The notes under the pieces were generated by a model that worked only from the letters and a program-made list of their open reading frames with translations, did not search any database and was not told the origin of the DNA. The position numbers and the translations under genes were made by a program. Shown here one piece after another: positions 5,743-30,351 of a stretch of 34,316 nt of DNA (the stretch's first letter is position 1; each line of letters opens with the position of its first letter). Origin of the DNA: Acidobacteriota bacterium (GTDB lineage Bacteria > Acidobacteriota > Thermoanaerobaculia > Multivoradales > JAGPDF01); assembly GCA_012521815.1 (NCBI GenBank), contig JAAYLR010000042.1, positions 1 through 34,316 on the forward strand, written 5' to 3'.

Positions 5743-6285
5743 ATGACCGACCCGACCTCCACGCCGCCCGCCACGGGCTGGCGCGCCCACCGCCAGGAGA
5801 TCAAGTTCCTGGCGCTCTTCCTCGCCCTGCTGCTGGGCAGCTTCACCGTGATCGCCTTCAAGCCCGTCAACGACCACGTCATCGAGCCGTTCACCGCCGG
5901 TGTCGCGAAGGCGAGCGGCTTCGTGCTCGCGGCGATCGGACAGGGGACGGAGATGTCGGGCACCATCATCCGCAACCAGCGCTTCGCGGTGAACATCCGC
6001 AACGGCTGCAACGGCGTCGAAGCGATGCTGATCTACGGCGCCGCGGTGCTCGCCTTCCCCGCCGCCTGGCGCACCCGCATCCGGGGCTTCCTGCTCGGCA
6101 TGGTGGCGATCCAGATCGTCAACCTCGTGCGGGTGGTGGCCCTCTTCCTGACCGGCGCCTACCTCCCCTCGCTCTTCGACAGCTCGCACACGGTGATCTG
6201 GCAGACGATCGTCATCCTCTCCAGCGTGGTGCTCTGGATCTACTGGGCGCAGCGCATCGTGCCGCGGGCGCAAGCCGCGTCATGA
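5743..6285 (+). CDS. xrtH: exosortase, short XrtH-like form
   Basis: A 180-residue integral membrane protease/transpeptidase that in this family recognises C-terminal sorting signals of exported proteins. The three catalytic positions are in the usual order: C89 in N-G-C-N-G, R130 in N-L-V-R-V, and H149 in S-S-H-T. About four or five hydrophobic segments are visible (22-40, 92-107, 113-136, 150-168). The short length and the gene for a small membrane protein directly downstream resemble exosortase H, whose known targets end in an IPTLxxWG-type signal; the subtype is from memory and unverified. No protein in this window ends in such a signal. The ATG has only a poor Shine-Dalgarno sequence. 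It is divergent from pyrR across 135 nt. Confidence 0.8.
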
Positions 6286-6875
6286 AGAGCCGTGACGGCG
6301 AGCGCGCCGAACGCTCCTGGGCCAGCCGCTTCCTGCGCAACCTGCTGCTCTGGGCGGTGCCCGTCACCCTCGTCTGGATCCTGCTCACGCCGTACTACAA
6401 CCGCTTCCTCACCGTCAGCGCCGAGCGGCTCCTCCGCCTCACGGAGTCGCCGGCGGCAACCGGTCTGACCCTCAGCGACCGGCATTTCGCCGTCGTCACC
6501 CGGGCCGACCTCTCGGCTGCGCGCGGCTACCTCTACCGGATCCGGGTCAGCGACATCCATTTCAACTGGCTGATGCTCGGGACCTTCTTCCTGGCGGTCC
6601 CCGGGGTCACCTTCCGGCGGCGGCTCGGCAACCTCGGGTGGGCGGCGCTCGCCACGGTCTGCTTCCACATCGTCTCCCTCTTCCTCTTCGTGAAGTTCGT
6701 CTACGCCACCCAGCTCGCGAGCTGGAGCCTCGCCCAGTACGGGGCGGCGGCGCGGGAGACCTGGGGGATGGCCAAGCACGTCTTCGACCTGCCCCTGAAG
6801 TTCGCCTGGCCGTTCCTCCTCTGGGCCGGCTTCTATCTCCGGGCGTTCTTCGCCCCGTCCGACCCCTCCCGGTAG
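6282..6875 (+). CDS. membrane protein partner of the exosortase
   Basis: A 197-residue protein starting inside the exosortase stop codon (ATGA overlap), so the two are translationally coupled. It has a basic N-terminus, a first hydrophobic segment at about 20-36, a polar stretch of about 55 residues that is probably periplasmic, and further segments at about 94-110, 119-137 and 176-192. No catalytic motif is recognised. Position, size and topology match the small membrane proteins encoded next to exosortase H genes; a role in presenting or processing the sorted protein is inference. Confidence 0.7.
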   Translation: MKSRDGERAERSWASRFLRNLLLWAVPVTLVWILLTPYYNRFLTVSAERLLRLTESPAATGLTLSDRHFAVVTRADLSAARGYLYRIRVSDIHFNWLMLGTFFLAVPGVTFRRRLGNLGWAALATVCFHIVSLFLFVKFVYATQLASWSLAQYGAAARETWGMAKHVFDLPLKFAWPFLLWAGFYLRAFFAPSDPSR

Positions 6876-6971: not shown

Positions 6972-9900
6972 ATGCTCAAGCTGCAGAGTCTGGAGCTGTC
7001 GGGGTTCAAGTCGTTCGTCGATCCAGCCACCGTGCGGTTCGCCGGCGGGGTGACGGCGATCGTCGGCCCGAACGGCTGCGGCAAGAGCAACCTCACCGAA
7101 GCGCTCACCTGGGTCCTCGGCGAGCAGAGCGCCAAGTCGGTGCGCGGCGACACGATGGAGGACGTCATCTTCAACGGCACCGAGCAGCGCCATCCGCTCG
7201 GCATGGCCGAGGTGACCGTCACCTTCGCCTGCGACCCCTCCTTCGAGCGGGCCGAGGAGGGACGGCTGACGATCTCCCGCCGCGTCTTCCGCTCGGGCGA
7301 GAGCCAGTACCGGATCAACGGCCGGGTCGTGCGCCTGCGCGACGTGAAGGACCTGTTCATGGACACCGGCCTCGGGATCCGGGCCTACTCCGTGATCGAA
7401 CAGGGGCGGATCGGGATGATCCTCTCGGGCAAGCCGCAGGAGCGGCGCCGCCTGATCGAGGAGGCCGCCGGCATCACCCGGTACAAGGTACGCAAGCATC
7501 AGGCCGAGCTGAAGCTCCAGGAGGCGACGGGCAACCTGATGCGCCTCGACGACATCCTCGCCGAGGTGGAACGCAACCTCCGGGTGCTCAAGCGGCAGGC
7601 AGCGGCGGCGCGCCGCTACGAGGAGCGGCGCGCCGAGCTGCGCACCCGCCAGCGCGAGCTGCTGCTCGGTCGGCACGCCGAGCTCGCCGGCAGCCTCGCC
7701 GGCCAGCGCCACGGCCTCGACGCCGCGGTGGCGGCCGAGGCGGCCTCGACGGCCGAGGTCGCCCGCGAGGAGGCCGCGCTCGCGGCCCGGCGCGAGGAGG
7801 TCGAGCGGCAGGCCACGGCCCTCGCCGAGGAGGCGCGGCAGCAGGCGGCGCTCGTCGGCACCATCGAAGGGCGGCAGGAGTTCCTGCGCGGGGCGCTGCG
7901 CACCGGCGACGACCTGCGCGCTCGCGCCCGGGCCGGCGCCGAACAGGCCCAGCGGCGCGATGGCGAGATCGCCAACCGCGAGCGGCGGCTCGCCGAGCTC
8001 GCCACCCAGCGCGCGGAGCTCGCCGACCTCGTCGCGCGGGCGGCCGCCGCCGTCGCCGACGAGGAGCAGGCGCTCGCCACCGCCCGGCAGACCGCGGCGC
8101 TCGCCGAACGCCAGCTCGAGAGCCGCCGCGAGGAGCTGCTCGTCTCGCTCGGCGGCCTCGACACGCTGCGCAGCCGCTCCCATCGCGAGCAGATCGAGAT
8201 CGAGAAGGCCGACCTCCGGCTCCGCCACCTCGGCGCGGAACAGGAGGCCCGGGAGCGGGACCGGAGCGAGGCGCGGGCGGAGGCCACGGCCGCCGCCACC
8301 CGCCTCGACGCGCTGGAGGCGCGCGCCCGGGAGGGCGAGCTCGCGCTCTCCCGCGCCGAAGGCTCGGTCGCCGAGGCGCTGGCGCTGGAGGCCGCGGTGA
8401 CCGAACGGCTGCGCGGCTTCGAGACCGATCTCGCCGCCCGCCGGGAGCGGCAGCGTTTCCTCGGCGAGCTCGCCGCCGCCGAGGCGGCGGGACGGCAGGA
8501 GCTCACCGACCGCCTCGCGGCCGCCGGAGTCGGCGAGGCCGGCTTCCTGGGCGACCACCTGCAGTCGCGGCGGCGGGGTTGGGAGCGGAGCCTCGACCGC
8601 TACCTCGGCGAGCTCGTCGACGCCGTGCTCCTGCCGCCCGGGGCCGATCCGCTCGCGGTGGCCGAGGCGCTCGCGGCGACCGGCGACAACGGCGCCATCG
8701 TGCTCCAGCCGGCGGCTCCGGAGACCCCGGCGAGCCCGCCGCCTCCCGCCGATCCGGCGATCCTTGGCCCGCTCGCCGACGCGGTCGGCCTGCCGCCGCC
8801 GATCGCCGCCTGCCTGCCGCCCGCCTTCCTGGTGGCGAACCGCGAAGCCGCCGTCGAGCTCGCGCGGCGTCATCCCGGAATCGCCTTCCTCACCCGCGAC
8901 CGCCTCTGGGCCAGCTCCGGCCTGCTGCGCCTGCTCGGCAACGGCGCTCAGCCGGGCCTTCTCGCCCGCACCAGCGAGCTCGCCGATCTCGAGGCGCTCC
9001 TCGCCCGGCTCGAAACGGAGCGGCAGGCGGCCGCCGCCGAGCTCGAGCTGCGACTCGCGGCCCGCTCCGCGGCGGCGCAGGCGCTCGGCCGGGAGCGCGA
9101 CGAGCTGGCGGCCGTCCGCCAGGATCTCGCCGTGGCCCGCGCCCGGCGCGAGGAGACGTCCGTGCGGGTGCGCCGGTCCGAAGAGGCGCTCGCCGCGGTG
9201 GCAGCCGAGGCCGCCGAGCTCGCGGCCAGCCGCCAGCGGATCGAGGAACGGTGCCAGCTGCTCTCCCGCGAGCTCGCCGAGGCCACGGCCGCCCACGCCG
9301 TCCGGGAGGCGGCCTTCGACGCCGCCCAGCAGGAGGTCACGGCGGCTCGCGAGACGCGGGAAAACCGGCGTTCGAGCGGCGCCGGCCAGCGCGGACAGCT
9401 CGAGGTCCTCGGCGAACGCCTCCGCTCCCTCGACTTCGAGGCCTCCCGGCTCCGGGAGGAGGCGCGGGACCTCGCAGCCCAGAGCACCGGCTGGCGGCAG
9501 GAGGCCGCCGAGATCGAGAACCGCCTCGCCGAGCTCGCCGCCGCCACGGCCGCGGCCGAACGGGAGCTCGCCGCCGCCGTCGCCCGGCAGGAGCGGGAAG
9601 GGGAGCTCCTGCAGGCCGGCCAGGAGGCGCTCGACTCCGCCCGCGCCGAGCTGCGGCGGCGCGAACAGGAGCTCGCGCAGCTGCGCGCCCGGCGGGAAGA
9701 GGAGCGGAGCGCCGTGGAGGGCGTCCGCGTCGCGCTCGTCGGCCTCGAGCACGATCTCGCCCACCTCGACGCGAGCTACCGGGAGGAGTTCCGGGAGCCG
9801 CTGCCCGAGATCCCGGGCGAGGTCCCGCCCAACCTCCCCGAGCTGGGGGCCGAGGTCGAACGCCTCCGCTCGCTGCTCGAGGCGATGGGTCCGGTCAACG

Positions 9901-22414: not shown

Positions 22415-23482
22415 TCAGGCGAGCGCCCCGGCCGCCGGCACGAGCTCGCCGTCCTCGATGCCCACCCGTTCCCCCGCTCCGGCGGCCCGTTCGACGATCT
22501 CCGCCCGCGCGCACGCCTCCCGCGCCGGCCCGGCGAGGTCGCCGTCCTCGACCAGCGCCTGGGCGGGGCAGCGGCCGCAGTAGTCGTAGCGCGCGCAGCC
22601 CGCGCAGCCGTTCAGGTCGCGGCGGCGGAGGGAGCGGACCCGCCGCAGCCAGTGCGAGCCCTCCCAGACCTCCCGGAACGGCCGCTCCCGCACGTCGCCG
22701 TCGGCGCCGGGCAGGATGCTGCAGGCCATCACCTCCCCCGCCGCGGTGATGCAGGCGTAGCGGGTCGCGGCGGCGCAGAGCGGCGCCTCCGGATCGAGCC
22801 TCCGCTCGCGGTCGAAGCAGCCGAGCACCGACCCGCCGAGCTCGCGCGCCAGTTCCGCCTGCGGCACCCGCAGGGCGAGGGGGGCGGGATCGCCATCCTT
22901 CCGGGCGGTGATCGTCGGCGAGATCCGCACCTCGCAGCCGCGCGCCTCTCCCCAGGCGGTGATCGCCCGCGCCTCCCGGTAGTTGAAGGTCATCAGCGGC
23001 ACCTTGAGGAGCGTCCGCACCCCGGCGGAGCGCAGGTGACCGATGCCGGCGACGACCCGCGAGAAGGTGCCCTGACGGCGGACGAAAGCGTCGAAGACGG
23101 CCGCGTCGAGGGTGTAGAACGAGACGTGCACCGTGGCGTCGAGGCCGGCGAGCGCCGCGGCCGCCGCCGTGTCCACCCGCGTGCCGTTGGTGAAGAGGTG
23201 GAGGTCGAAGTCGAGCGCGCGCGCCCGGCGGGCGATTTCGAGCCAGTCGGGGCGGAGGAGCGGCTCGCCGCCCGAGAGCGCCACCACCAGCGTGCCCATC
23301 GCCGCCAGCTCGTCGAGCAGCGCGAGCAGGCGGGCGGCCGAGAGGCGGTCGGGACTGCCGAAGTCGGGGATGTAGCAGTGCCCGCACCGGAGGTTGCAGT
23401 GGTGCGTCAGCTCGATCATCACCTCGATCGGGATCGTCCGCGCCGCCGCCTCCCTCCAGAGCCGGTCCCGCTGGCCGCTCAC
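22415..23482 (-). CDS. radical SAM/SPASM domain protein, peptide-maturase type
   Basis: A 355-residue enzyme with three predicted iron-sulfur clusters. The radical SAM cluster motif is C29-N-L-R-C33-G-H-C36, followed by the SAM-binding GGEP at 71-74. The C-terminal SPASM domain carries C236, C244, C254, C293-x-x-C296, C302-x-x-C305 and C324, the full set for two auxiliary clusters. Enzymes of this layout (PqqE, AlbA, anSME, mycofactocin maturase) install thioether, C-C or similar bonds in peptides, or oxidise Cys/Ser in proteins. The GTG start overlaps the stop of the HprK-like gene (GTGA). A 31-residue tail follows the last Cys. With a PqqD-like gene in the same operon, a peptide or protein substrate is likely. 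Confidence 0.9.
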   Translation of the reverse strand: MSGQRDRLWREAAARTIPIEVMIELTHHCNLRCGHCYIPDFGSPDRLSAARLLALLDELAAMGTLVVALSGGEPLLRPDWLEIARRARALDFDLHLFTNGTRVDTAAAAALAGLDATVHVSFYTLDAAVFDAFVRRQGTFSRVVAGIGHLRSAGVRTLLKVPLMTFNYREARAITAWGEARGCEVRISPTITARKDGDPAPLALRVPQAELARELGGSVLGCFDRERRLDPEAPLCAAATRYACITAAGEVMACSILPGADGDVRERPFREVWEGSHWLRRVRSLRRRDLNGCAGCARYDYCGRCPAQALVEDGDLAGPAREACARAEIVERAAGAGERVGIEDGELVPAAGALA

Positions 23483-24279
23483 GCCGCCACCTCCCCGGCG
23501 AGCGCCGACCAGACGCCGGCATCGGGCCGGAACCGCAGCTCGGCCACCGGCACCTCGACGAGGAGCCGGGCGAGGAGGTCGAGGGCGCGCTCCGCCGCCT
23601 CCGGCGCGAAGGTCGGCCAGACGACCTCGGCGGCGAGGCGGCGGCGCGCCGCTTCCGGCGGGAGCCGCCGCAGCTCGTGATCCGGTCCGTGGGCGAGCAG
23701 GCGGACGCCGGCGAGCCGGCCGCCTCCGGGCCGGCCGTGCCAGTAAGGGAGCGCATGGGCCGTCCAACCCTCCTCGCCGCGCCGGAGCAGGCAGAGCTCG
23801 TCGCAGAGCCCCCGCTCGCCGAGGAGGGCGGCCAGCGTCGACTTCCCCGCCCCCGACGGCCCGGCACAGACGAAGGCGCGGCCATCCGCGGCGGCGAGCG
23901 CGCCGTGGAGGAGGAGCGACTCCGGCGTGGTGAGCGCGAGGAGGGCGCGGAGCAGGGAGTCCACACCGTGCCGATGGACGGGGGCGCTGAGCTCGCCTTG
24001 CCCGGTCGTCAGATCCACGGCCGCCGCGACCGACGCCGAACGCAGGGTGAGCCGGCCGCCGGCCGCGACGATGTCGAGCGGCTCGGCCATGAGGCGGGCC
24101 AGGGCCGCGGCGTCCCGCACCTCGCCGGCGCCGGTGAGACGGATCACGAAGCGGGGCGCGCGGCGGGTGGCGAAGGCGCCGTAGCGCGGCGCGAGCGCCG
24201 CCGGCCACGCCTCATCCGCCGCCTCGAAGGCGACGGCGAGCCCGGCGAGATCGACGGTGAAGCGCCTCAGAACTGGCAC
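23479..24279 (-). CDS. HprK-like P-loop protein
   Basis: A 266-residue protein with one clear nucleotide-binding site, GPSGAGKST at 140-148, preceded by SLLLHGALAA as in HPr kinase C-terminal domains, and a possible acidic metal site D160-E161. The N-terminal 120 residues are not the HPr kinase sensor domain. Proteins of this kind occur beside PqqD-like genes and are named HPr-kinase-related proteins (family naming from memory); their reaction is not established. The GTG start is the only reasonable one and lies 13 nt inside the upstream PqqD-like gene; no Shine-Dalgarno sequence is visible, so translation probably depends on coupling. Its stop overlaps the radical SAM start. Confidence 0.8.
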   Translation of the reverse strand: MPVLRRFTVDLAGLAVAFEAADEAWPAALAPRYGAFATRRAPRFVIRLTGAGEVRDAAALARLMAEPLDIVAAGGRLTLRSASVAAAVDLTTGQGELSAPVHRHGVDSLLRALLALTTPESLLLHGALAAADGRAFVCAGPSGAGKSTLAALLGERGLCDELCLLRRGEEGWTAHALPYWHGRPGGGRLAGVRLLAHGPDHELRRLPPEAARRRLAAEVVWPTFAPEAAERALDLLARLLVEVPVAELRFRPDAGVWSALAGEVAA

Positions 24280-24671
24280 TGCGGGTTGCCGGGATGCTGG
24301 GACGGCGAGATCTGGTTCGTCGCCCGCGCCACCTCCTCCCGCCAGAGCAGGCGCGGGGCGTTCCCGGAGCGGACCGGGAACGCCTCCCCGCCCGCGCCCT
24401 CCTCGGCGGCCACCACCAGCCCGAGCGCGACGAGCTCGGCGAGGAAATCGCAGAGCGCCGTCTCCTCCCCGGTCTGGCGCGCCGCCGCGCGGAGCGCCGC
24501 CGTCTCCGCTCCCTCCTTGAGCGCCAGGAGCAGCTCTCCCCCCTCCGGGTTGAAGCCGTAGATCCGGCTCTCGCGCAGGTCGAGAACGACCGTCTCCTCC
24601 CCTACCTGCCGCTGCGCCAGATGGGTGGCACGGCGCAGTATCGGCGGCAACACGACCGTCTCTCCGCGCAT
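24267..24671 (-). CDS. PqqD-like peptide-binding protein with C-terminal tail
   Basis: A 134-residue protein. Residues 10-92 follow the PqqD pattern: GEETVVLDLRESRIYGFNPEG, a Leu-rich helix, then DFLAELVALGLV. This is the RiPP recognition fold that holds leader peptides for radical SAM enzymes. Usual PqqD proteins stop near residue 90, while here a further 42 residues follow, Gly/Ala-rich first and then Arg/Glu-rich, ending in the polar stretch NQISPSQHPGNPQCQF with a single Cys near the end. The tail has no recognised domain and could be a substrate region, a docking tail or a linker. The gene starts 2 nt after the stop of the secreted-protein gene and its 3' end overlaps the HprK-like start by 13 nt. 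Confidence 0.8.
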   Translation of the reverse strand: MRGETVVLPPILRRATHLAQRQVGEETVVLDLRESRIYGFNPEGGELLLALKEGAETAALRAAARQTGEETALCDFLAELVALGLVVAAEEGAGGEAFPVRSGNAPRLLWREEVARATNQISPSQHPGNPQCQF

Positions 24672-24673
24672 CG

Positions 24674-25264
24674 TCAGGGCTCCAGATGGAAGAGGGCGGG
24701 AGCCGCGCACGGCTCGTCCGCGCCGTCGAGATGGACCGTGACCTGCCAGCTCCCCCAGAGCGCGGCGTCCACGATCGCGGTTCCGGCCACCGGCAGGGGT
24801 GAGGTGACCCGCAGCGCCGGCGCCTCTCCGGCCAGCGTCGTCCGGGCGACGAGCCCGAGCGGGACGGGGAACGGGTAGCCGGCTACCCTCCGGGCCGCCC
24901 CCGGCGGCGCCTCGCCCGCCGTGAACGGCACCGCCACGCTCTGGTAGAGCTCGCCCCCCTCGGCGAGCGTCCAGCGCAGCTCGAGCAGATGCTCGCCGGT
25001 GAGCGCCGGATCGAGATCGACCAGCGCCAGCAGGTCGTCGTTGGCGGCCGTCGAGAAGGCCGGCACCGGCGCCCGCCCCCACGCCGAGGTGTCGCCGCTC
25101 TCGAAGCCGTCCGAGAGCAGCGCCGTGCCGGCGGCGTTGCCGACCACGCTCACGCCGAGGCAGAGCTCCGCGGCGGCGAGCGGCGCGGCGCCGAGCAGCA
25201 GGAGGCCGAGCAGCAGCGCGCCGCCGGCCAGGAGGGGCCCACGCGAAAGGTACGGGGTGCGCAT
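24674..25264 (-). CDS. secreted protein with FESGDTSAW motif, function unknown
   Basis: A 196-residue exported protein. Residues 1-32 form a clear signal peptide with a long Leu/Ala core ending in AAA. The mature part begins with Cys35, contains D-G-F-E-S-G-D-T-S-A-W at 52-62, a motif seen in many secreted proteins of environmental bacteria, and is otherwise beta-rich with a second Cys at 186 that could bridge to Cys35. No enzyme motif is seen. The ATG is supported by GGAGGAG about 6 nt upstream. It lies 14 nt after the S8 protease stop and 2 nt before the PqqD-like start. It could be a substrate of the protease or of the modification genes; neither is shown. Confidence 0.75.
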   Translation of the reverse strand: MRTPYLSRGPLLAGGALLLGLLLLGAAPLAAAELCLGVSVVGNAAGTALLSDGFESGDTSAWGRAPVPAFSTAANDDLLALVDLDPALTGEHLLELRWTLAEGGELYQSVAVPFTAGEAPPGAARRVAGYPFPVPLGLVARTTLAGEAPALRVTSPLPVAGTAIVDAALWGSWQVTVHLDGADEPCAAPALFHLEP

Positions 25265-25278
25265 CGTCGTCTCCTCCC

Positions 25279-28200
25279 TCACGGCAGCGGCAGCTCCACG
25301 GCGACGACCCGGCCCGAGCGCGAGCCGGCATGGAGCATCGCCGGGCTCTGGGTGCGGTCGATCGTCACGGGGCCGAGCCCGCCGACGCCGGCGAGATCGT
25401 AGGTCTTCGGGGTGGCCCAGGCGTTCGCGCCGTCGAGCTCGATCACCCGGCCGTTCGTGCAGGCGGCGTTGGCGCAGGCACCGAGGTAGACGCGCGCGGT
25501 GCCGTAATGGAGCAGCGGCCGGGTCGGCGAGACGAGCCCGCCGACCGACCAGTCGCTCCCCGTGGCGCCGCTCGCGGGGATCGCCCAGACCGTCGTGTTG
25601 GTGGTGAAGTAGAGGCGCGCGAGCGCCGGATCGAAGTAGATCCAGGTGCGGATGGCGCCGTCGCCGAAGGCGCGCGACCAGGCGGTCGCCCCGGTGGCGG
25701 GCACGAGCGCGTGGACGCTGCCCGCGTTCGTGCCGACGACGATCCGGCCGTTCGTCCAGTCGTGGGTCGGGGAACCGTCGATGTCGCCCAGGTCGCGTGC
25801 CCAGGCGAGCGTCGCGCTGCCGGCGGTGAAGTCGAGCGCCCAGAGCGAGTGCGCGCTGCCGCCGGTGCGGGTGCGGCTCGCGAAGTAGGCGCGCGAGCCG
25901 AGGACGAGCGCCGGACCGCTCACCAGCCCCATCGCCTGCCCGTCGCCTCCCTGCGTCGCGCTGTTGGTGAACGCCCAGGCGGTGGCGCCCGTCTGCGCGT
26001 CGACGGCGTAGAAGCCGTTCGCGCCGCTCGCGTTGCGCGACCCGAAGAGGACCCGGCGGTTGCCGACATCGAAGATCGGCTGCGCCTGCACCATGCCGAA
26101 GCCCTGGACGCTCCGCCCGCCCGCCGGCCAGCCGGTGCAGCCGGCGCCGGTGGCGGCGTCGAAGCAGTAGAGGTAGCCGTCCTGCGCGGCGACGTAGGCC
26201 GCGTCGTGCGGCAGCCCCGCCTGCGCGGCGAGGACGACGAGCGGCGCGTCCTGCGCCGGGCCGTTCATCGCCGCCGGGCGGTAGCCGCTCTTCCAGAGGC
26301 CACCCGCGGCACCGCCGCCGAGGGCGTAGAAGGCGCGGTCGTTCGACGGCACATAGATACCGAGCCCCCAGCCCTGGATCGGCGGCGCGAGCGCCGCGGC
26401 CGGGGTCGCGAAGTTCCACTTCCAGTTGCCGGCGGTCGCCTGCGGCAGGGCGGCGATCGTGCGCCGCGCCGAGAAGGTGCCGGCACCCGAGTTGGCAAAG
26501 GCGGCGTCGTAGACCGGCGTGCCGTTGCTGAGGCCGGTCTGTGTATAGCTCGCCTTCTGCCCGGTCGTGCCCGCGAGATCGACCACCAGCGTGCCGGCGG
26601 CCGGATCGGCCGGGTAGGAGGCGAGCGAGGAGCGCAGCCGGGTCGAGGCGAACGGGCCGGTGGCCGGGTTCAGCCACTCGAGTGTCGCCTGCGTGCTCTT
26701 GCCCGTCGCGGTCAGGAACTCCACCGGCTGCGGCGCGGCGGTGCAGCCGGCCACCGGATCCCGGGTGATCGCGACGTCGTCGATGAACCAGCCGTCGCCG
26801 GTACCGGTAACAAGACTACAGAAGAATCCGCCCGTGGGTGTGATCGCAATCCAGGCGACATGGAGCGTGTGCCCGGCACAGCCGCCGCTCACCCCGGGGA
26901 TGGCGTTGCAGACGGCGTCGAGAGCGATCGTCGTCGTCTGCATCGTGGCCGATGCGTACCCGCTGCTGGTGCCGCTCCAGACCGAGTCTCCGCTGCCACC
27001 CGGGGTGCAGCTCGACGAGAGGGTGTCCGTGTAGCCGGCGCCGCTGATGGCGGACGCCGGCACGAGGGTGTAGGTCGTCGAGTCGTCGAGCGCGACGCCG
27101 ACAAGCCCGCCGCTGACCGCCCCGTACAAGAGGGAGGTCGGGAACTCCCAGCGGTGCCGGAAGGTGAGGCGGAGGTTGGTGCTCCCCGGGGCGATCACGA
27201 TCCCGGTGCCGCCGCCCGGCTCCCGCCCCCGGAGCGTTCCGCGACCGTAATCATCGTTGCAGCCAGCGCCGCCGAAACGGAAGATGTTGCCGCTGCAGTT
27301 CTGCCGGCCCCGCCATTGGAGATTGGTGCCGCCGAAGTCCACGTCGACCCAGTCGAAGAACGGAGCGCTCGTCGCGCTCTCGAAGTCGTGGGCGTAGACC
27401 GTGCCGCTGAGCGCCGTGCCGTTGACGTAACCCGACAGCTCCGCGTCGTTGGCGTCCACGTTGCCGCCGTTGCACGGACCGTCCCCCGCGGCGCCGCCAT
27501 CCTCGGCGCGGACGACGTAGTAGAGGTCGGTGTCGAGCGGCATCGTGGTGTCGTCCCAGGCGGTGCCGCTCAGGCAGGCGGCGATCCGGTTCGCCGGCCC
27601 GGGGGTGAAGCCGGGGGTCGGGGAGCGGTAGACCGCGTAGGTCACCGGTCCCTCGCACTGCGCTGTCGCCGGGTTCCAGGCGAGGCGCAGGCCGCAGCCC
27701 TGGCCGCCGCCGAGGTCGCTCACCGAGGCGAGGCCGGCGAAGAGCGGCGGCAGGAGGCAGTCGCCCGTCGCGGTGGCCGACGCCACGTTCGAATCGGCCG
27801 ACTCGCAGGCGGAGCCGTTGCTGCCGTAGCTCCGGACGACGTAGTAGTAGGTCGTGCCCCCGGAGACCTGGGTGTCGGTGTAGGCGGTCGCCGGCACCGG
27901 CACGGTGGCGAGCGGCGCGTACGGCCCGCCGGCGCTCACGCTCCGGTAGAGGCGGTACTCGGTGGCGCCCGCGACCCCGTTCCAGGAGAGGTCGATCCGG
28001 TTGGCGGCGGTCGCGCTGGCCACGAGCCCGGTCGGAACCGGGGGCGGCGTGCACCGCCGCAGGTCGCCCGAGACGACGAGCGCGAAATCCTGCCCGGCGA
28101 GGTTCGGCGGGTTCACCGCGACGTTCGCAGCTCGCACCTCGATCGTCCAGTCGCCCGTCGCGGGCGTCTGCACGAAGACGTTCTCCACGTTGTTGGCGCT

Positions 28201-30351
28201 GTCCCTGGCCGTGCCGGGGTCGGGAGTGGACCAGGCGCCGGTGAACCGGTTGCCCCGGTAGGTCACCCCCGCGGGGGAGGTGACGATCAGATCGAGATCG
28301 TTGCGCAACGGCGATGAGGAGTTGACGGCCCCCGGCGGGTCGGTCCAGACGAGGGTGATCTTGAGCCGGGTCGAGCTGTCGGCGACCGGCTGCGTCAGCG
28401 TGTAGGAGCGGCCGGTGGTGAGCAGACGGGAGGACGACTGGTCGAGGAACTCGATCTGGCCGGTCGGCGGGCCTTCGATCGCCTGCCGCAGGTCGATCCG
28501 GCCCCAGCCCTGGGCATAGGAGGGGTAGCCGAGGCCGATGTCCACCGCGCCGTTGATGAGCGCCGCCTTCGCGAGCGCCGGCGACGGGTCGGCGAAGAAG
28601 CTGGTGCGGTAGAACTCGTAAAAGACCGCGGCCGCGCCGGCGGTGAGCGGGGTCGACATCGAGGTGCCCGGCATGAGGCGATAGTTGCTGCCGGTCCATC
28701 CCTGATCCCATCCCTCTTCGCAGGGGTCCCCGGGTCCACTTGTGCAGTTGAGCGAATCGACCGAAAGAACGTCGGCTCCGACCGCCACGACGTCCGGCTT
28801 CACCCTTCCCTGACTCGGGCCGCGGCTGGAGAAGGTGGTGACCGTGCCGATATTCGGGCCTCCCTGTTGACTCGGCACGTACGAGCCGCACCGATCGTTC
28901 TGTGTGGCTCCCACCGTAAGGGCGTTCTTCGCCGTCCCAGGGGCTCCCACGGTGCTCGCATTCGGCCCGGAGTTGCCGGCCGAGAAGAGGATCATGAGCT
29001 CCTGGTTGCCGGCGGCGGTGGCGGCGTCGCGAACGAGGCCATCGACCGCTACGGCTGCCGTGCTGTAGCTATAAGTGTTCCGATAACCCCACGAATTCGT
29101 GTTGAGCCGTGCCCCCTGGGTGTACGACCACTGCATCATGGTCGTCTCGTCGGTGGCCCCTCCGTCGAAGAGGTTGTTGGTCACCAGCTGGGCGCCCCAT
29201 GCCATCCCGCGGACCGTGGAGAGCGGGGTGGTCTGATCGCCACAGCCGGAGGTGTTCGTCGGCGAACCCCCTGTCGCGAGGCCACGCCCCACGACCGAGC
29301 CCGCGGTGTGGGTGCCATGCTCGTTGTTGGTGTTCGTCATCGCGCCCCGGGTCGCGATGATCACGCCGGTGGGGAAGTCGGGGTGGATCAGACTGACGCC
29401 GCCGTCGTTGTGGCCGACGATCACGCCGGCACCGTTGTAGCCGAGCTCCCGCCAGACCGGCTCGATGTTGAGGATGTAATCCTTGGCGGCCAGGTTGTTG
29501 TGCAGCTCCCGCTCGTAGACCGGCTCGAGATAGGCGAGGTCGTCGATCGCGGCGAGCAGCGGGAGGACCTCCGGCCCGCTGGCGGCGAAGGCGTCCTCCG
29601 CCCCCCAGGCGAGCTCGGGCTCGACGCGCGGCAGGTACCGGGCGACCGCGGCGAGCACGGCTTCGGCGTCGGTGCCGGGATGGGGGAAGGCACGCACGAT
29701 CACCGCTCCGTCCGCCGTCCGGAGGAGCCCGGGCAGATCATCGGCGGCGAGAACCCCGGTCGCGAGCGCGAGGAGCGTCTCGCTCAGCCGGGCCTCCACC
29801 GGCAGCGGGAGGAGCGACTCGACCACCGGGAAACCCTCGGAGGTCCGGATCCCGGCGGCCTTCTCGAACCCTTCGCCGCCGCCGCGCAGCAGCACGGTGT
29901 ACGGCGCCTCGTGGTCGAGGACGTCGAGGCCGGCGCTCGCGAGCTGCGCGAGCCAGGCGGCGTCCACCGGCCCCACGAGCCGGGCCAGGTAGTAGCCCCG
30001 GGGCAGCGCCGCCAGCTCCGTTCTCGCGAGCGGCGGGTAGCTGCCGGTCCAGGAGCGGTAGGCGGCCCGGTCGCTCTCCGCCACCGCGCTCAGCCGCGAC
30101 TGGAGCGCCGGCGTGAGCGCGGCGGTCGTCCCGATCCGCACCAGATTCGCCTCCGGATACCGGTGTACGATCGTGCCCGCGGCGGCGGCAGGCAGCCGGG
30201 CATCGGCGGGCACGAGGAAGAGGCCCCCCGCCATCCGGAGGGTCGCCTTTCCGGGCGGCTCCTCGGCGGCGAGCGGCACGACGGCCAGGGTCACGAGGAG
30301 CAGGGCGCTGCCGAGAGCCCGGAGCGCCAGCGCAAGCAGGGAGCGATCCAT
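25279..30351 (-). CDS. large secreted S8 subtilase with fibronectin and PQQ-like propeller domains
   Basis: A 1690-residue exported serine protease. The signal peptide (1-29) is followed by a roughly 260-residue pro-region. The subtilase domain spans about 305-625 with the full triad D316 (HNDGG), H345 (EHGTHTAG) and S564 (PGTSMSTP), plus the oxyanion N460 (SAGN). A beta-sandwich domain follows (625-765), then two fibronectin type III domains (about 770-862 and 866-957), a Cys-rich module beginning with DFESATS at 989 (about 985-1200), another FnIII-like stretch, and a C-terminal beta-propeller of PQQ/BamB-like repeats (about 1310-1690; phrases such as YCFDAATG, YAVDAQTGATAW, HALVPATGATAW). 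The ATG has AGGAGG 5 nt upstream. There is no C-terminal sorting signal. It heads the operon with the PqqD/radical SAM genes. Substrate unknown. Confidence 0.92.
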   Translation of the reverse strand: MDRSLLALALRALGSALLLVTLAVVPLAAEEPPGKATLRMAGGLFLVPADARLPAAAAGTIVHRYPEANLVRIGTTAALTPALQSRLSAVAESDRAAYRSWTGSYPPLARTELAALPRGYYLARLVGPVDAAWLAQLASAGLDVLDHEAPYTVLLRGGGEGFEKAAGIRTSEGFPVVESLLPLPVEARLSETLLALATGVLAADDLPGLLRTADGAVIVRAFPHPGTDAEAVLAAVARYLPRVEPELAWGAEDAFAASGPEVLPLLAAIDDLAYLEPVYERELHNNLAAKDYILNIEPVWRELGYNGAGVIVGHNDGGVSLIHPDFPTGVIIATRGAMTNTNNEHGTHTAGSVVGRGLATGGSPTNTSGCGDQTTPLSTVRGMAWGAQLVTNNLFDGGATDETTMMQWSYTQGARLNTNSWGYRNTYSYSTAAVAVDGLVRDAATAAGNQELMILFSAGNSGPNASTVGAPGTAKNALTVGATQNDRCGSYVPSQQGGPNIGTVTTFSSRGPSQGRVKPDVVAVGADVLSVDSLNCTSGPGDPCEEGWDQGWTGSNYRLMPGTSMSTPLTAGAAAVFYEFYRTSFFADPSPALAKAALINGAVDIGLGYPSYAQGWGRIDLRQAIEGPPTGQIEFLDQSSSRLLTTGRSYTLTQPVADSSTRLKITLVWTDPPGAVNSSSPLRNDLDLIVTSPAGVTYRGNRFTGAWSTPDPGTARDSANNVENVFVQTPATGDWTIEVRAANVAVNPPNLAGQDFALVVSGDLRRCTPPPVPTGLVASATAANRIDLSWNGVAGATEYRLYRSVSAGGPYAPLATVPVPATAYTDTQVSGGTTYYYVVRSYGSNGSACESADSNVASATATGDCLLPPLFAGLASVSDLGGGQGCGLRLAWNPATAQCEGPVTYAVYRSPTPGFTPGPANRIAACLSGTAWDDTTMPLDTDLYYVVRAEDGGAAGDGPCNGGNVDANDAELSGYVNGTALSGTVYAHDFESATSAPFFDWVDVDFGGTNLQWRGRQNCSGNIFRFGGAGCNDDYGRGTLRGREPGGGTGIVIAPGSTNLRLTFRHRWEFPTSLLYGAVSGGLVGVALDDSTTYTLVPASAISGAGYTDTLSSSCTPGGSGDSVWSGTSSGYASATMQTTTIALDAVCNAIPGVSGGCAGHTLHVAWIAITPTGGFFCSLVTGTGDGWFIDDVAITRDPVAGCTAAPQPVEFLTATGKSTQATLEWLNPATGPFASTRLRSSLASYPADPAAGTLVVDLAGTTGQKASYTQTGLSNGTPVYDAAFANSGAGTFSARRTIAALPQATAGNWKWNFATPAAALAPPIQGWGLGIYVPSNDRAFYALGGGAAGGLWKSGYRPAAMNGPAQDAPLVVLAAQAGLPHDAAYVAAQDGYLYCFDAATGAGCTGWPAGGRSVQGFGMVQAQPIFDVGNRRVLFGSRNASGANGFYAVDAQTGATAWAFTNSATQGGDGQAMGLVSGPALVLGSRAYFASRTRTGGSAHSLWALDFTAGSATLAWARDLGDIDGSPTHDWTNGRIVVGTNAGSVHALVPATGATAWSRAFGDGAIRTWIYFDPALARLYFTTNTTVWAIPASGATGSDWSVGGLVSPTRPLLHYGTARVYLGACANAACTNGRVIELDGANAWATPKTYDLAGVGGLGPVTIDRTQSPAMLHAGSRSGRVVAVELPLP

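Follow-up and report, generated by a model that had tools for sequence, protein, structure and literature searches.

A gene cassette from an Acidobacteriota bacterium very probably encodes a RiPP pathway whose precursor peptide and recognition element, a PqqD-like protein, are fused into one chain. The cassette lies in the window, the whole 34,316-nucleotide stretch of DNA that was analyzed, where five minus-strand genes run head to tail and encode a giant exported protein, the FES protein, the PqqD-like protein, an HprK-like protein, and a radical SAM/SPASM enzyme (Table 1). We identify the C-terminal tail of the PqqD-like protein as the precursor because it shares a register with free precursors of sister clusters, because a profile made from those free precursors recovers fused tails, and because a related operon carries the same components in an unfused state.

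Gene content and the tailed PqqD-like protein

The genes are tightly packed. Gaps of 14 and 2 nt follow the genes for the giant protein (1,690 residues) and the FES protein (196 residues), respectively, whereas the gene for the PqqD-like protein (134 residues) overlaps that for the HprK-like protein (266 residues) by 13 nt, and the latter overlaps the gene for the radical SAM/SPASM enzyme (355 residues) by 4 nt (GTGA). The maturase scores above the PF04055 and PF13186 cut-offs and contains CNLRCGHC together with both SPASM motifs, C-x12-G-x4-C and CxxCx5CxxC, with all cysteines present. The Walker A motif of the HprK-like protein is GPSGAGKS. An earlier reading of the DNA from its letters alone (the sequence-only reading) had described four packed genes with PqqD-like, HprK-like, and radical SAM/SPASM identities and a full set of cysteines, and the coordinates, Pfam matches, motifs, and predicted RRE fold all agree with that description.

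Table 1. Features of the cassette in the window
Feature	Position	Strand	Basis
Giant exported protein: S8 domain, Fn3, C-terminal PQQ-like beta-propeller	25279..30351	-	Pfam S8 6e-35, Beta-prop_ACSF4 1e-8, fn3
C-terminal PQQ-like beta-propeller of giant exported protein	about 25282-26334	-	Pfam
FES protein: N-terminal hydrophobic segment, FESGDTSAW motif, Ig-like beta-sandwich (predicted)	24674..25264	-	
Predicted RRE-precursor fusion: PqqD-like domain with C-terminal precursor tail	24267..24671	-	
RRE (PqqD-fold) domain, residues 10-90	24402..24644	-	AlphaFold pLDDT about 97; Foldseek
Predicted leader/recognition strand PRLLWREEV, residues 106-114	24330..24356	-	Predicted beta-strand 108-113, pLDDT about 89
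Putative core ARATNQISPSQHPGNPQCQF	24270..24329	-	Low pLDDT; alignment with other tails and free precursors
HprK-like kinase, ScmC/lasso-kinase type, GTG start	23479..24279	-	TIGR04352, TIGR04249 below cut-off; H..GxxGxGKS..DE motif
Radical SAM/SPASM maturase	22415..23482	-	PF04055, PF13186; cysteine motifs; maturase tree

The window PqqD-like protein scores 18.6 bits against PF05402, below the 23.4 cut-off, and its identity as a PqqD therefore rests on its predicted fold. The AlphaFold model is confidently of the PqqD type, that is, an RRE, and the top Foldseek matches are RREs, of which the best, 5v1v, has a modest E-value of 1.9e-3 at a probability of 1.00. The best matches comprise TbiB1 with leader, TigE, ThcOx, a lasso B1 with leader (6jx3), and SuiB. 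Beyond the RRE domain, LLWREE is modeled as a strand, and since the RRE provides the only other sheet, in DSSP terms this strand must pair with the RRE. The residues that follow are modeled with low confidence, as a disordered core. Such a geometry is what would be expected of a leader bound in cis with its core exposed.

Conservation in the tail points the same way. Residues P106, W110, and C132 (window numbering) are invariant among 16 PqqD sequences, and the fused tails carry PR-[ILV]-x-W-x-E-E-[VIL], followed in most by AxxCxFxPGxxxxCxQxPFxS. The W-x-x-[EP]-[VIL] portion of this strand is similar to the W/Y/LxxP/L/I sequences recognized by PqqD- and lasso-type RREs (PMC12710340). Neither the window cassette nor the rest of the window genome yielded a separate short precursor gene. 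The sequence-only reading took the small precursor to be missing; a precursor present as the C-terminal extension of the PqqD-like protein fits the evidence better, and its alternative suggestion of a peptide made in cis suits the PqqD tail. The window's own family (f1), represented by three genomes, has lost the first cysteine and the terminal Ser but kept Cys132. All three members share the core NQxSPxQ....NPxCxF, a conservation that argues against decay, and the product predicted for this lineage probably differs from that of the two-Cys members.

Distribution, free precursors, and the unfused state

With the window PqqD-like protein as a profile, we searched 149 genomes of the same class. 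Full-length tailed relatives are present in 19 of them, and the score then drops from 112 to 68 bits for ordinary PqqD proteins. The same neighbors occur in the same order in 15 of the 18 other tailed-PqqD genomes, counting one in which the maturase runs off the contig (G007) and one in which the propeller gene does (G143). The remaining three, all of family f7, retain PqqD-HprK-rSAM, with the propeller and FES genes at other loci; in this family, the RiPP genes come after a membrane mannosyltransferase-like gene. Two genomes from another acidobacterial family (f78) have the complete set with a tailed PqqD and a divergently oriented propeller-FES pair, so inheritance of operon order alone does not account for the adjacency. 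A scan of a named collection, for which six PqqD sequences served as query because the alignment of all 16 was too variable, placed relatives in Thermoanaerobaculia/Acidobacteriota, and a plasmid collection searched for the cassette gave no match. Nearly all of the genomes are MAGs, and the distribution is that sampled within Acidobacteriota, the search beyond the phylum being non-exhaustive. The proposal of an unrecognised modification system is borne out to the extent that the cassette is conserved as a unit in many genomes, and a profile search of the kind that the sequence-only reading had suggested as a check finds the gene order in most tailed-PqqD genomes, not only in the window genome.

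In the sister systems of Terriglobia and gp2 acidobacteria, HprK, a tail-less PqqD, and radical SAM accompany a separate precursor of 53–59 residues. Fused tails and free precursors have one common register, P-x14-C-x9-C-x6-S-COOH. The C-x9-C-x6-S ending is found at 27 of 9,335 ORF C-termini in the fetched loci, all of them tails or precursors and all 27 with the P, a count that includes near-copies and loci fetched twice and corresponds to about 20 independent sequences. By itself, P-x14-C matches 683 of the 9,335. The full pattern was read off the same sequences and thus defined after inspection, and its weight comes from its occurrence in two sets that differ in gene structure. A profile built from free precursors alone recovers fused tails in six genomes (G037, G114, G108, G045, G081, and G129) at per-genome E-values of 0.001–0.05. 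It has no match to the tail of the window family, and scored among all 9,335 C-termini, the free-precursor HMM detects fused tails weakly (E 0.3–5). The unfused state is seen in G080 (L117), where the order is propeller-FES-free precursor-tail-less PqqD-rSAM-HprK and the free precursor itself ends ...RYDPPAVAWEEPIEVRAALTLACTKTDFICSIDSAAS.

These observations bear on whether the tail could be a structural or regulatory extension of the PqqD, with the real substrate encoded elsewhere in the genome. Such an extension would accommodate the window tail, which has diverged from the consensus and has only one Cys, but we consider it unlikely given that the exact register recurs in the free precursors of the sister clusters, that the unfused intermediate holds its free precursor inside the same operon, and that the profile, run on the window genome and G001, returned no free precursor. 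The sequence-only reading had named homologous clusters with an ordinary precursor, moved or lost here, as grounds for abandoning its idea. In effect, such clusters exist, as the sister free precursors and G080; they explain the system rather than remove it.

The Terriglobia (L108, L111, L112, L113, and L114) and gp2 (L084-L088 and L090) free precursors have the form KKPYxKPxxxxExxFExxALxCGK...C...S and accompany HprK, PqqD, and radical SAM, mostly along with a signal-peptidase-like protein; this system is widespread and without an NCBIfam name. At L116, two tandem precursor-like ORFs (8395-9117 and 9121-9330; KKPYEKPAI...C...C...S) are present, and no HprK, PqqD, or radical SAM homologues were detected nearby.

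The exported propeller and FES proteins

Homologues of the giant protein in the same slot all end in a PQQ-like propeller, and their N-termini vary, with an S8 domain in a minority and MAM or Fn3 domains in others. We therefore rejected the S8 protease as a defining component, and the label of giant protease given to the window protein by the sequence-only reading does not carry over to most homologues. S8 is encoded beside the precursor in the window, L024, L030, L124, and L125, and also in the unlinked propeller gene of L120. This arrangement could suggest that the peptide serves the upstream-encoded S8 protease as a private inhibitor or regulator, a role that seems very unlikely when most slot proteins lack S8 and yet the propeller and FES are kept.

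FES is found in 19 of 19 fused-PqqD genomes versus 2 of 129 others, G080 being one of the two (Fisher 5e-22). In the f7 loci L119, L120, and L122, the FES domain is adjacent or fused to the propeller, away from the RiPP genes, and in two of these genomes (L120 and L122), the fusion is in frame. The gp2 genome L090 has a propeller-FES pair beside free precursors. Taken together, gene order, co-occurrence, and fusion indicate at the sequence level that the propeller-FES pair is part of the peptide system. A further pair, at the contig end of L118 (9937-11903), belongs to a genome without a fused PqqD (G124), and the same genome has a free-precursor-like match (G124:C209).

A different reading of the near-perfect co-occurrence would be that FES or the propeller protein is itself the substrate and is modified before export, as the sequence-only reading had suggested. 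In favor of this, FES has two conserved cysteines, Cys35 and Cys186. These are, however, the cysteines expected for a disulfide in an exported protein, FES has no tail-like motif, a dedicated precursor exists, and the gp2 and Terriglobia sister systems mostly lack FES but have a precursor. We regard modification of the exported protein as highly improbable and found no support for it. The predicted structure of FES has no confident PDB match. Some FES proteins (L029, L035, and L121) have the DDFESGxTxxW sequence at their extreme C-terminus, whereas in that of the window it lies near the N-terminus, which makes it a movable short motif.

Relation to known pathways and proposed biosynthesis

A radical SAM/SPASM enzyme is present in all complete cassettes, and the maturases keep the three SAM-cluster cysteines and the auxiliary cysteines. 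In the maturase tree, the fused-type enzymes form one clade (support 100/100) that neighbors the Terriglobia/gp2 clade with modest support (82/76). The HprK-like proteins keep H..GxxGxGKS..DE, in which the second Asp is replaced by Glu; the His of L080 is differently spaced. The H..GxxGxGKS..DD/DE motif matters in lasso-peptide kinases (PMC10368454). Several lasso kinases use a C-terminal Ser as their site. All 12 free precursors compared end in Ser, as do 12 of 20 fused tails. The kinase is kept where the Ser has been lost (8 of 20), and that residue thus cannot be the only role of the kinase; the kinase motif is intact everywhere, and no covariation of the terminal Ser with kinase integrity was seen. 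A B2-type peptidase gene (PF13471) directly follows the rSAM gene in 12 of 19 tailed-PqqD genomes and in both f78 genomes. The peptidase scores 32.3 bits against NF033537, just under the cut-off of 33, and the window genome has an unlinked homologue on another contig (G000:C194). NTP_transf_5, considered as a general cassette member, was rejected in that it adjoins the cassette only in G327 and G478. No exporter for the predicted peptide product was identified. A viperin or defense role was also rejected, as PADLOC gave only weak, generic radical SAM and S8 matches.

The closest resemblance is to lasso-peptide clusters with split B1/B2 and an HprK-like kinase, such as the bsf cluster (PMC10368454). 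Shared with these are a discrete PqqD-fold RRE, a transglutaminase-like B2 peptidase, the HprK-like kinase motif, often a C-terminal Ser, and, in two cassettes, NTP_transf_5. Unlike them, the cassette has a radical SAM/SPASM maturase in place of a lasso cyclase, and its precursor is fused to the RRE. One could imagine a lasso-peptide cluster served by an unlinked cyclase, in keeping with the B1-type RRE, B2 peptidase, kinase, and NTP_transf_5 of two genomes. This we judge extremely improbable: on the available contigs, no cassette has an Asn_synthase domain within 30 kb, every cassette has a dedicated SPASM maturase, and the cores lack a conserved N-terminal Gly/Cys plus an Asp/Glu acceptor.

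SynChlorMet (ScmA-F, TIGR04248-04251) likewise brings together an HprK-like protein (ScmC), a PqqD-like protein (ScmD), and SPASM maturases, and, among NCBIfam models, its families come closest to the sister-clade HprK and PqqD. The cassette scores far below the NCBIfam cut-offs for ScmC/D/E/F and differs in having one maturase, a fused precursor, and a propeller-FES partner. The PQQ and mycofactocin pathways share a PqqD/MftB-type RRE, a SPASM maturase, and a recognition sequence of the W/Y-x-x-P type (PMC12710340), whereas the cassette has a different precursor and maturase family (75.5 bits against the 381-bit PqqE cut-off and 96.7 bits against the 265-bit MftC cut-off), a kinase, and a precursor-bearing RRE. 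Sactipeptides and ranthipeptides also have a SPASM maturase and a Cys-containing core, but here the RRE is outside the maturase, and a kinase and B2 peptidase are present. In borosins, the precursor is fused to its methyltransferase. The cassette is similar in having the precursor in cis to a handling protein, but that protein is an RRE rather than a catalytic enzyme, and the chemistry is unrelated. By the tests made, the cassette is outside the named lasso and SPASM RiPP families and is a variant of RRE-dependent RiPP biosynthesis; we infer that it is lasso-like up to the cyclization step and SPASM-RiPP-like at that step. The open-access literature, to which the search was confined, yielded no report of an RRE-precursor fusion and nothing on SynChlorMet or on PqqD with HprK and radical SAM.

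Each step of the pathway that we propose is suggested by a component that is present. The tail strand P-R-[ILV]-x-W-x-E is predicted to bind the RRE in cis and would thereby present the C-terminal core to the radical SAM/SPASM enzyme for modification; in most members, the Cys-x9-Cys unit would probably receive a cross-link or thioether. Phosphorylation of the precursor could fall to the HprK-like kinase, with the C-terminal Ser, where present, the likely site, and the B2-type transglutaminase-like peptidase may cut the core free. The product, presumably exported, might then act together with the exported beta-propeller and FES proteins, to which gene order, co-occurrence, and fusion link it. 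More tentatively, and rather doubtfully, the cassette could define a new RiPP class whose recognition element doubles as the precursor and whose product serves a secreted beta-propeller/FES complex as a dedicated peptide cofactor or ligand. The logic would be like that of PQQ and its propeller dehydrogenases, with no homology of the peptides.

A precursor inside an RRE gene has practical consequences. RiPP mining expects a short precursor gene beside the RRE, and clusters of this kind are easily overlooked. The fusion fixes the pairing of RRE and precursor and offers a natural single-chain substrate for structures of an RRE presenting its core, and the near-perfectly co-occurring secreted partner opens the peptide's biological role to testing.

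Elsewhere in the window, and not linked to the cassette, the plus strand encodes exosortase H (5743-6285; TIGR04177, 113.8 bits, above the cut-off of 86), the end of whose gene is overlapped by an unnamed membrane protein gene (6282-6875).
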